Part shown: one piece after another, positions 17,939 through 22,402 of the stretch | Layout: each line of letters opens with the position of its first letter | Position numbering within the stretch: position 1 is the first letter of the stretch | DNA from: Glaciecola sp. | GTDB lineage: Bacteria; Pseudomonadota; Gammaproteobacteria; Enterobacterales; Alteromonadaceae | Direction: 5' to 3' | Length of the DNA stretch: 64,000 nt | Assembly (NCBI GenBank): GCA_029251505.1 | Contig: JAQXDG010000081.1 | Location: 48,758 to 112,757, forward strand | Made by a program: the position numbers and the translations under genes | The notes under the pieces: model-generated | Databases searched by the model: none | Told to the model about the DNA's origin: nothing | What the model saw: only the letters and a program-made list of their open reading frames with translations

Positions 17939-17963
17939 AATCAGATTACTCTCGAATTAGACA

Positions 17964-17990
17964 AACCCATTACGCGTTAATGGGTTTTTT
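17964..17990 (+). terminator. Rho-independent terminator after fkpA
   Basis: AACCCATTA-CGCGT-TAATGGGTT stem-loop followed by a T run. Confidence 0.85.
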
Positions 17991-18144
17991 ATATCTTTGC
18001 GTTACCCCATTAATTGGTTATATTTTTGCTTAATCAATGAAAGATAATTGGTAAAGTATCGGTCTTAATGATAGTTATTGGGCTGCATTCCTAATATTCG
18101 CTTTGTACTTACGTATATTTAATATTGAAAAAAGGAAGACCATT

Positions 18145-18489
18145 ATGAATAAATCGACAACAGCATCTTTAGCTATCGCATCATTATTATCTCTTGGCAT
18201 TGCTGCAGATGCACAAGCAGCAAAAGACAAAAAAGAAAAATGTTACGGTGTTGCATTAGCAGGTCAAAATGATTGCGGAAACTTAGCGGGCACTCACAGC
18301 TGCGCTGGTCAATCGACTATCGATAATGATATCGGTGAATGGAAACTCGTGCCTAAAGGTTCATGTCAAGAAATGGGTGGGTATTCGCGCCAAGACGCAA
18401 AGAAAATGTATCAATCTTTAAAATCCTCTGATGATAAAATGAAAGATAAAGCCAAGCATATGAAAGACAAATCCATGTCGATGAAATAA
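18145..18489 (+). CDS. DUF2282/BufA1-type bufferin precursor (RiPP precursor with signal peptide)
   Basis: RBS AAAGGAAG then ATG at 18145; signal peptide [25 protein letters not shown]; core [28 protein letters not shown]...KGSC with four Cys; followed by DUF692 and DUF2063 genes. Confidence 0.88.
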
Positions 18490-18533
18490 TTGGTCGCAAT
18501 ACATACATCGTCAACAATAGGGTGACACTCTGC

Positions 18534-19427
18534 ATGCCAACTTTAACGCAACCACAGATCGGTGTAGGATTACGTCACCCACATTACGAGGCAGCCCTAG
18601 CGGCACCTCACGGTGTCGATTTTGTGGAGTTTCATGCAGAAAACCTCTTTGCTCAAAGTGACTTACAGCAACAATTTATCCAAGATGTCGCGGCGCGATG
18701 GGATGTAAGCATCCATGGTACTGCGTTTGGATTGGGGTCAGTGTCACCCCCAACAACGCAAGCATTACAGGCATTAACCGAGCTAGTTAACGCAACTCAA
18801 CCTATCCTCGTTTCAGAACATGTCTGCTTTAATCGCGCTATGCTGCATGGCAAGTTATATCATGGCGGGGATTTATACCCGATCCCATACAACAACACAT
18901 CACTCGATGTACTTTGTCAGCATATCGATATTGTGCAACACCAATTACAACGGCCAATATTGCTTGAAAATCTCAGCGCCTACTTAGATGATATCGAACA
19001 TGAGTACACTGAAAGCGAGTTTTTGACATCGATGGTGCAGCGAACCGGTTGTGGGTTATTGCTCGATTTAAATAATATTCTTATCAACGAATATAATCAA
19101 AATAGCGTCAGTCCGCTTAATAACGCTATGACGTTTATTCGTAATTTACCTAACAATGCAATCCAAGAGATCCATTTGGCAGGTTTTACACCTAACAAAG
19201 TCAACGGCAAGTATGTCGATGATCATGCGCAACCGGTATACGATGAATGCTGGCAGTTATATGCTCAAACGCTAGCGTATACAGGGGTCTTGCCTACCTT
19301 AATCGAATGGGATAATCATTTACCTGATTGGTCGGTACTGCAAGCACAAGCTGAACAAGCGCGTAAGATTGCACTTGCTCACCGACAAACCGCAGATACG
19401 TTGGCTTCAACAGATGAATCATACTGA
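18534..19427 (+). CDS. DUF692 / MNIO family multinuclear iron oxidative enzyme (BufB/MbnB-like)
   Basis: IGVGLRHPHYEAAL, DFVEFHAENLF, SEHVCF, LLENLSAYL, TGCGLLLDLNNI, EIHLAGF motifs; ATG at 18534 preferred (GTG 18522 possible). Confidence 0.93.
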   Translation: MPTLTQPQIGVGLRHPHYEAALAAPHGVDFVEFHAENLFAQSDLQQQFIQDVAARWDVSIHGTAFGLGSVSPPTTQALQALTELVNATQPILVSEHVCFNRAMLHGKLYHGGDLYPIPYNNTSLDVLCQHIDIVQHQLQRPILLENLSAYLDDIEHEYTESEFLTSMVQRTGCGLLLDLNNILINEYNQNSVSPLNNAMTFIRNLPNNAIQEIHLAGFTPNKVNGKYVDDHAQPVYDECWQLYAQTLAYTGVLPTLIEWDNHLPDWSVLQAQAEQARKIALAHRQTADTLASTDESY

Positions 19428-20139
19428 TCTGGCTCATTGGCAAGCACAATTCATCACCTCGGTATTTTCTCAGGATCCACAAGCATCCAATTCGGGCATG
19501 GCGATTTATCGCAACAACCTGGTACTGACTCATAGAGCTAGCATCATGCTGACATTTTCTCGCACCTGCGCATTGCTTGGCGATAATGCCCATATAGCGA
19601 TTTATCGGTATTTAACCGAATTTGGAAAGGCTAGTTATGACTGGGCACTATGCGGTGAACATTTTGCGCAATCCTTAGCCCAACAACCAGAGTTAGCAGA
19701 ACAGTCTTATATCAGTGATATGGCTAAGTATGAATGGTGTCGCCACCAGATTAACCGTGCGCCTGCAAAACCCTTTAATCAATCGAGTATTGGGATGCTC
19801 AGTACTCACGATTGGTCTGATTTATATCTGGATTTAGCTCCAGGTTGGGGGTTATTTAGCAGTGATGATGATATTCCAACGATGTTTGTTGATGCGTTAG
19901 AAAAAAACACGCCTCCCGTTCTTTATGGGACACATCAAACGTGGGTCTGTTGGCGTAGTGGCAATGCACCGCAACAATTAATCGTACCAGCACAAACTCA
20001 GGTGCTCTATCAACATGCCTCTGCGATGAGTATTCGACAACTCGCCGATTTGGCTGAAGTTATTGACGTTGATTTGATGGTATGGCTAGCCTTGCTAATG
20101 CAAACAAAACAGCTATTTGGATTGCGCCTCTTAGATTAA
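19414..20139 (+). CDS. DUF2063 putative DNA-binding domain protein (BufC/MbnC-like partner)
   Basis: IYRNNLVLTHRASIMLTFSRTCALLGD N-terminal pattern; overlaps the 3' end of the DUF692 gene by 14 bp; ATG at 19414. Confidence 0.88.
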   Translation: MNHTDLAHWQAQFITSVFSQDPQASNSGMAIYRNNLVLTHRASIMLTFSRTCALLGDNAHIAIYRYLTEFGKASYDWALCGEHFAQSLAQQPELAEQSYISDMAKYEWCRHQINRAPAKPFNQSSIGMLSTHDWSDLYLDLAPGWGLFSSDDDIPTMFVDALEKNTPPVLYGTHQTWVCWRSGNAPQQLIVPAQTQVLYQHASAMSIRQLADLAEVIDVDLMVWLALLMQTKQLFGLRLLD

Positions 20140-20234
20140 GAAACTTAGCGTAAGAGTCAAACCCGAACAGCATTTAATATAATATGGGGCGCCGGGCGCA
20201 TCAGTGTTGACCATTACCTTGCTATCAAATAAGG

Positions 20235-20752: not shown

Positions 20753-22402
20753 TTAATTACTCACTATCTCAGAAAAGTGACATGAAGCAAAGGGATCATT
20801 ATTCTGATCGTAAGAGACAGAAGTAACAGACATGATACCTAATAAAATATCAAAGAGATTATCATGACTCATGCGGGTACCTTTAGCTTGCGCAATACAG
20901 CCCAGATCCAAGTCGGTTGTTTCATTGTCTGCCCATAACAACATGGGCACGTGGGTTTGTGAGTCAGGGGCAACACTGTAAGGTAAACCATGTAAATAAA
21001 TACCTTTTTCTCCTAACGATTCACCATGATCCGAAATATACAATAACGAGGTATTGAGCTCTGTTGCCATAGCTGATGTTTTGAGTGAAGCAATAATTTT
21101 ATTCAGCACATAATCCGTGTAGGCAATCGTATTATCATATGTATTGATGAGTGCCTCATCGGTACAGTTTTGAATATCACTGCGCGGACAATCAGGCATA
21201 AATGTGCGTTTGTCTTGGGGATAACGTTTAAAATACGTAGGTCCATGCGACCCAATCATGTGTAATACAATGAACGTATTATCATGGGTTAAATTGCTAA
21301 GTTTCTCATTTAGTGGTGCAAGTAATACTTCATCAAAACAAAATTCGCCATCACACAGCGGATTCGATGACTCAGGTGTGATTTGCAGAGATGGCACGCG
21401 GGTACACACACCTTTACAACTGCCATTATTATTACTGATCCACAGTACATCAGCGCCTGCTGCAGCAATCACATCCACCACATTTTGTTGCGCATTGGCC
21501 TGACGATGATCAAAATCAGCATGATTTAAACGCGAAAACATACAAGGTACTGATACCGCTGTTGCTGTGCCGCATGAATGCATATCAGCAAACGAAATTA
21601 TATTTTCATTTGCGGTAAATTGATTGGTATTTTGCTCATATCCATTATAAGAAAAATTTTTCGCACGCGCCGTTTCACCTAAAACCATGACCGTGACGTG
21701 TTTTTTAGGATTCACTCGGTTAATGACAGGAGTAGGATCAAGCTGCGTAAACGGTACTGCAGGATATAAATAGGTGTTCTTGACATACTTGACTGTACCA
21801 TCGATCATTTTGTACGGAGTGATATAGCCAATCAATGGCTTGTTATTCCGCCCTACCGCCGCATAATCAGAATAAAAGACACTGGCGATGAGGCCAATCA
21901 CCACGACACTAGAAAAGACTAATTTACAGCGACTCGCTAATTCTGACAAAGCCGGTTTATAATCGATGTTGACCAACCCGATAAAGACCGCAGGCAGCAC
22001 ACCAAAGGCCAGAATAAACAACGCCGCATAACCATTCACATAAGAAAATGCTTCGGCAGTATCAGTCTCAAATGCATTTTGCACCATGCCATAATCAAAC
22101 ACGATCCCATAAGATAACGTGGCATAAAATAGTGCTGCCGATACGATCACAGTAGCAATTAATATTGGCTTGGTCAGGCCTTTCCATGCAAATAGACTAT
22201 GCATAATGACAATCACCATAAATAAAAATAATGGTAACGACAGTAAAAACAACAGATTGTATTGTGCTAACCCGGTAATGGCTTGGGTTGCTTTTTGTAA
22301 AAAAGGAAAGTTCAATATTAGCGTAATGTACGCACACGTGAGCATCACCAACTGGTTCGCCGAGAGGTGGGTATTGCGTATCTTGTTTATTATTTTTTTC
22401 AC
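20753..22402 (-). CDS. eptA: Lipid A phosphoethanolamine transferase (EptA/PmrC family)
   Basis: N-terminal TM domain, then sulfatase-like domain with VLGETARAKNFSYNGYEQNTNQF, GTATAVSVPCMFS, YISDHGESLGEKGIYLHGLPY. Confidence 0.9.
   Translation of the reverse strand: MKKIINKIRNTHLSANQLVMLTCAYITLILNFPFLQKATQAITGLAQYNLLFLLSLPLFLFMVIVIMHSLFAWKGLTKPILIATVIVSAALFYATLSYGIVFDYGMVQNAFETDTAEAFSYVNGYAALFILAFGVLPAVFIGLVNIDYKPALSELASRCKLVFSSVVVIGLIASVFYSDYAAVGRNNKPLIGYITPYKMIDGTVKYVKNTYLYPAVPFTQLDPTPVINRVNPKKHVTVMVLGETARAKNFSYNGYEQNTNQFTANENIISFADMHSCGTATAVSVPCMFSRLNHADFDHRQANAQQNVVDVIAAAGADVLWISNNNGSCKGVCTRVPSLQITPESSNPLCDGEFCFDEVLLAPLNEKLSNLTHDNTFIVLHMIGSHGPTYFKRYPQDKRTFMPDCPRSDIQNCTDEALINTYDNTIAYTDYVLNKIIASLKTSAMATELNTSLLYISDHGESLGEKGIYLHGLPYSVAPDSQTHVPMLLWADNETTDLDLGCIAQAKGTRMSHDNLFDILLGIMSVTSVSYDQNNDPFASCHFSEIVSN

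Follow-up and report, generated by a model that had tools for sequence, protein, structure and literature searches.

Bufferins are a known kind of peptide, with thousands of members in published surveys, and DoxX is, to our knowledge, a core partner in most bufferin operons that has no established role. The Buf1 system of Caulobacter makes thiooxazoles and chelates copper (PMC12452194), with only the two central cysteines of its peptide modified and the outer two forming a disulphide. In Cupriavidus, the gigPABT operon is copper-induced (PMC10304878). The enzyme pair FonBC favours a small residue after the cysteine, and Asp249 of FonB is the proposed catalytic base (PMC13097082). Operons of this kind also occur in stress regulons: the neisserial sigma-E, with the consensus GTMAGBWTT-N12-13-CGTCTAAH, has a regulon made up of msrAB and NMB2140-2145, an operon that holds a DoxX-like gene and rpoE (PMC2893595), and H. 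influenzae RpoE2 controls msrAB together with a doxX/DUF692-type/DUF2063 operon (PMC7907618).

Here we describe a related locus in a window of 64,000 nucleotides, by which we mean the whole stretch of DNA that was analysed, from an uncultured marine bacterium of the Opacimonas/Glaciecola group (Glaciecola sp., assembly GCA_029251505.1, contig JAQXDG010000081.1, positions 48,758 to 112,757). The locus is very probably a Buf1-type bufferin (captophorin) operon, bufABC, from which doxX has been deleted and whose probable ECF-sigma transcription is shared with msrAB. Three features are new here: the natural loss of doxX, whose scar can still be read, the promoter-like element that an operon of the DUF2282 type has in common with msrAB, and a genus-specific methionine tail on the precursor.

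The three genes lie in the order bufA-bufB-bufC, all co-directional on the forward strand, which is the gene order of Buf1 operons. BufA (18145-18489, 114 residues), whose ATG at 18145 is preceded by AAGGA, is the bufferin precursor and matches DUF2282 (PF10048) at 9.3e-25, with 86.8 bits against a cut-off of 22.4 and the domain covering residues 30-79. BufB (18534-19427, 297 residues) is an MNIO (DUF692/MbnB_TglH_ChrH) enzyme that matches PF05114, formerly DUF692, at 2.1e-80 and 270 bits; its ATG start was preferred over an upstream GTG because the relatives align at the ATG. BufB also matches 3bww, TglH and MbnB, and its best model in the NCBIfam library is MNIO_BufB, at 277 bits, below the curated cut-off of 310. 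BufC (19414-20139, 241 residues) is a PME1-type partner, made of DUF2063 and a C-terminal domain, and passes PF09836 barely (3.8e-6; 27.5 bits against 27.2). An earlier note, made from the letters alone, had named these three reading frames as a bufferin-type cassette, with a 14-bp overlap between the DUF692 and DUF2063 genes and cysteines 33, 44, 53 and 74 in the 114-residue form of the precursor; the frames, the overlap (19414-19427) and the cysteines are all present as described, and the domain search that the note had proposed, reported above, gave significant matches to all three families. Its assignment to bufferins, specifically the Buf1/DUF2282 type, holds on family, gene order, cysteine pattern and active-site residues. 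The doxX remnant just 3' of the operon and the promoter-like element 5' of bufA, both described below, had gone unmentioned. In the whole genome, this is the sole locus detected for DUF2282, DUF692 or DUF2063. Upstream, an intrinsic-terminator-like hairpin (17963-17987, forward strand), a stem of 10 pairs followed by a T run, would close the preceding FKBP-type isomerase gene and set it apart from the buf operon.

The best 80 loci found for comparison come mostly from marine gammaproteobacteria, and 76 of them have both precursor and partner beside the enzyme. The same-genus relatives include Opacimonas viscosa (G002) and three Glaciecola-labelled metagenome genomes (G001, G004 and G005), in which the locus is syntenic. 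With G001, the relative nearest to the window in this block, as reference, dN/dS is 0.05 for bufA, 0.09 for bufB and 0.13 for bufC, rough figures since dS is near saturation, and comparable with those of the neighbouring GNAT (0.08) and eptA (0.11) genes. These values indicate that bufABC is under purifying selection; together with the synteny, this selection across same-genus species rules out chance reading frames.

The block has its own history. Identity with the sister genome G005 is 95-99% up to about 17.9 kb of the window and 91-97% after 23.1 kb; between 17900 and 23070, a stretch holding the buf, GNAT, eptA and greB genes, it is mostly 54-85%, with about 90% near 22.1-22.5 kb. The block was probably exchanged by recombination in the lineage of either the window or G005, as this pattern of divergence suggests. 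The greB-like gene is oppositely oriented in G005. The gene near the buf operon at 20753-22402 (reverse strand) encodes an EptA-like phosphoethanolamine-lipid A transferase, which scores 579 bits on NCBIfam P_eth_NH2_trans and below every MCR cut-off; an EptA-like gene was seen at this place in G001 and G005, and not in G002 and G004. In G001, a divergent gene for an AraC/cupin-like regulator (L055 6979-7851, reverse complement) stands between the FKBP gene and bufA; similar genes, their family judged by eye, lie near the buf loci of G011 and G028 and are absent from the window. YHS-like genes occur immediately 5' of bufA in G011 and G028. One DUF2282 precursor of G028 (Alteromonas sediminis), at L060 8197-8484, stands alone behind YHS-like and thioredoxin-like genes, and a second one, about 16 kb off, has an adjoining MNIO gene, so that one enzyme possibly serves two precursors.

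The precursor carries the marks of a Buf1 peptide. Judged by eye, the N-terminus of BufA appears to be of the Sec type, with a basic start, a hydrophobic stretch and AQA|A before KDKK, and those of its relatives are similar. Its four cysteines, at residues 33, 44, 53 and 74, form a pattern also found in relatives. By analogy with Caulobacter Buf1, the expected modification targets are Cys44 and Cys53, the central pair (codons 18274-18276 and 18301-18303, spanning 18274-18303), rather than all four. The small residues that follow them (Cys44-Gly, Cys53-Ala), as opposed to those after the outer pair (Cys33-Tyr, Cys74-Gln), fit modification of the central pair. The expected product is 5-thiooxazole, as in characterised homologues, and not the oxazolone/thioamide of methanobactin (PMC13097082). 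A PDB sequence search with BufA gave no match. A Buf2 bufferin was ruled out by the score on the NCBIfam BufA2 model (23 bits against 60) and by the number of cysteines, four and not 6 or 12, and a captophorin of the oxazolin/EGKCG kind by the lack of EGKCG repeats in BufA. A methanobactin-like chalkophore system for copper uptake has in its favour a shared MNIO superfamily and a weak similarity of BufB to MbnB (39 bits, cut-off 325), and deserves hardly any credence when BufB scores 277 bits on its own model, the cassette contains neither an MbnA-like precursor nor MbnC, and the precursor bears an apparent Sec-type signal besides its four cysteines.

The enzyme and its partner both look intact. 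In seven BufB proteins, residues H61, H96, E145, D178, N180, H214, D230, H231, E258 and D260, among which are the presumed metal ligands and catalytic base, are invariant, and Asp260, in the motif LIEWD, presumably corresponds by alignment to Asp249 of FonB. Because partners outside the genus share only about 20% identity with BufC, its structure was modelled; a PDB sequence search with BufC had returned nothing credible. The model (pLDDT 91.4) has two domains, helical at the N-terminus and alpha/beta at the C-terminus, and the sole significant PDB matches in a fold search were chain A of the TglHI entries (TglI), at an E-value of 4e-5 and over the whole length of BufC. The Pfam match and the predicted fold together mark BufC as a PME1 partner, with DUF2063 plus an RRE-type domain. 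Residue 49 of BufC (19558-19560) is a serine, in place of a proline found in 43 of the 49 BufC proteins aligned.

What sets the operon apart is the gene that is missing from its 3' end. Every same-genus genome that can be read at this place, five in number (G001, G002, G004, G005 and G009), has a DoxX-family gene of about 146 codons after bufC, and two of the encoded proteins, when scanned, matched PF07681 at about 1e-16. A DUF692 fragment in G009 was considered as a pseudogene and rejected, as it is a contig end; that contig has a partial bufB, bufC and doxX. In the window, only 95 bp separate bufC from the GNAT gene, and within them lie the last 20 codons of doxX (bufD/gigT), FNIIWGAGRISVDHYLAIK followed by a stop, at 20173-20232 on the forward strand. 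The remnant is identical to the 3' end of the G001 doxX at 43 of 60 nucleotides, in register, whereas 2000 shuffles gave at most 33 of 60. The search for DoxX in the rest of the genome, which is 97.7% complete, gave nothing; taken with the remnant, this means that doxX was deleted and left a scar. Comparison with the sister species thus indicates that the operon ancestrally had doxX as its fourth gene and lost it in the window's lineage. The deletion site lies well inside the contig, away from any contig-end effect, and only the reads could exclude an assembly error as the source of the apparent deletion.

The loss can be read in two ways. In one, which we consider improbable, the remaining genes ceased to be useful after the deletion and the locus is early in decay: doxX is cut to 20 codons, Ser49 replaces a mostly conserved proline in BufC, and the same-genus genomes in which neither DUF2282 nor DUF692 was found (G003, a single contig, and G006-G008, which are less complete) make the locus dispensable. 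Set against these signs, bufABC has no frameshift or stop, its dN/dS is as low as that of the adjoining GNAT and eptA genes, with no relaxed selection seen in these values on bufB and bufC after the doxX loss, the catalytic residues of BufB are intact, and 15 of the 76 related loci retain bufABC with no adjacent doxX. In the reading we prefer, a working Buf1 operon, doxX is a frequent core gene that is not obligatory, and the operon here is without it; the BufB score below its curated cut-off, the bare pass of BufC on Pfam and its Ser49 count against this reading. The deletion of doxX beside intact bufABC suggests that, even with no DoxX, the pathway to the peptide may be of use, and the window's lineage offers a natural contrast to its doxX-bearing sister species.

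A promoter-like element precedes the operon. It reads TGAAAG-N17-GGTCTTAA (18038-18068, forward strand), ends 76 nt before the bufA ATG and has the architecture of ECF-sigma promoters. The motif was defined by eye from an alignment of the bufA upstream regions of the window, G005, G001 and G004; the region of O. viscosa (G002) does not align, and the motif was then found in it, giving five species in total and the consensus TGAAAG-N17-GGTCTWWA. Its frequency in the genome (one exact site, one in the control; three with one mismatch, three in the control) proves nothing by itself, and the support comes from position and conservation. The core, TGAAAG-N17-GGTCT, recurs before msrAB at exactly -66 in the window genome, G001, G004 and G005, four species in all, its position kept in the last three despite diverged spacers; among more distant species, a loose version stands upstream of msrAB in G003, G007 and G009, and none was found there in G006 and G008. 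The gene msrAB encodes MsrA, thioredoxin and MsrB parts in one protein, which is anchored to the membrane at its N-terminus. The same core also precedes YHS-domain-like and SOUL-like genes in G001 (L149) and G004 (L153), where the YHS match is below the Pfam cut-off and the SOUL family was judged by eye, and a further site in relatives precedes a thioredoxin-like gene.

The -10 part and the spacing of the motif resemble the neisserial sigma-E consensus. This likeness to the Neisseria and Haemophilus regulons, together with the shared motif, suggests that bufA and msrAB belong to a common ECF-sigma regulon like those of the two genera. If so, the element links a bufferin of the DUF2282 type to the repair of methionine sulfoxide and extends the regulon logic of Neisseria and Haemophilus, which have another precursor type, to marine Alteromonadales. 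Three ECF candidates are encoded in the genome (L154-L156), with RseA-like, DUF3379 and ChrR-like partners (assigned by eye except for DUF3379); none of the three genes has the motif upstream, and its assignment to one of them was dropped. Control by NrsF/sigma-F as in Caulobacter was rejected, with no NrsF in eight genomes. Upstream of bufA homologues, a CueR-like dyad was absent from 78 loci and an E. coli-type sigma-E promoter was not found; sites in a sigma-70 promoter scan near bufA were no more numerous than in shuffled sequence.

The company that bufA keeps in this motif also admits a different function, in which the main task of the peptide would be to handle oxidants (hypochlorite or reactive sulphur, for instance) or a metal other than copper, with copper binding in second place. 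The motif is common to bufA, msrAB and, in relatives, the YHS/SOUL and thioredoxin-like genes, the RpoE2 regulon of H. influenzae is responsive to HOCl (PMC7907618), and Caulobacter sigma-F responds to chromium (PMC3511200); however, those thiooxazole peptides that have been characterised bind copper as a rule (PMC13097082, PMC12452194), copper induces gig (PMC10304878), and copper itself causes oxidative damage, so that the msrAB link fits both functions. We regard oxidant defence as possible, if doubtful, and the product as best taken, by analogy with Caulobacter Buf1 and Cupriavidus gigPABT, to be periplasmic and copper-related.

The C-terminus of BufA adds a feature of its own. Residues 88-114 (18406-18486, forward strand) form a methionine-rich extension with five methionines, ending in MSMK. 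After the fourth cysteine, the window's BufA has six methionines, the four other same-genus proteins have 4-6, and in the remaining 74 relatives the number never exceeds three; the tail ends in MSMK in four of the five same-genus proteins and in MSSMK in one. Among the proteins compared, the tail is thus specific to the genus. Methionine-rich motifs in periplasmic copper proteins often bind Cu(I), and MsrAB repairs oxidised methionine; a functional link of the tail to both would be attractive. In its fullest form, which is unlikely though worth stating, the genus's bufferin would be a two-site copper peptide, with a thiooxazole core and a conserved methionine-rich tail, its end set with closely spaced methionines, that the co-regulated MsrAB keeps reduced, working without DoxX in the window's lineage. 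Were this true, that lineage would be a natural test of whether bufferin function needs DoxX.

These observations can be assembled into a pathway for the Buf1-type operon, with its chemistry, export and copper binding drawn from homologues. The operon and the gene for membrane-anchored MsrAB would probably be transcribed by one and the same ECF sigma factor. The BufA precursor would be held by BufC for BufB, which, in the cytoplasm, would oxidise Cys44 and Cys53 to 5-thiooxazoles. The peptide would then be exported by Sec, with formation of a Cys33-Cys74 disulphide, and in the periplasm it would bind copper and so buffer an excess. As doxX is deleted in the window's lineage, the peptide would work there, if at all, without DoxX.

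Among the known systems, methanobactin MbnABC shares with this locus an MNIO enzyme and a partner acting on cysteine, and differs in its leader-type precursor, which lacks a Sec signal, its oxazolone/thioamide product and its role in copper uptake. The captophorins fontiphorin, oxazolin (HvfA) and gonophorin follow the same PME1-dependent MNIO route, here predicted, to 5-thiooxazole copper-binding peptides; their precursors have EGKCG repeats, whereas that of the window is of the DUF2282 family. The captophorin loci of Neisseria and Haemophilus lie in an ECF regulon with msrAB, as suggested for the window. Cupriavidus metallidurans gigPABT is alike in gigP (a four-cysteine precursor), gigA (an MNIO-type protein) and gigB (DUF2063), but it adjoins rpoQ/rsqA and keeps the DoxX-related gigT, whose equivalent is deleted in the window. 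Buf1 of Caulobacter vibrioides (CC3254-CC3257) has the same order of a DUF2282 four-cysteine precursor, an MNIO enzyme and a DUF2063 protein, and its precursor has a Sec signal of the kind that is apparent in BufA here. In contrast to the window, with its 20-codon remnant, it has doxX; an ECF sigma/anti-sigma pair (sigma-F/CC3252) lies nearby, whereas the window's genome has no NrsF match, and its promoter motif is GTAACC-N16-CGAA, as against TGAAAG-N17-GGTCT here.
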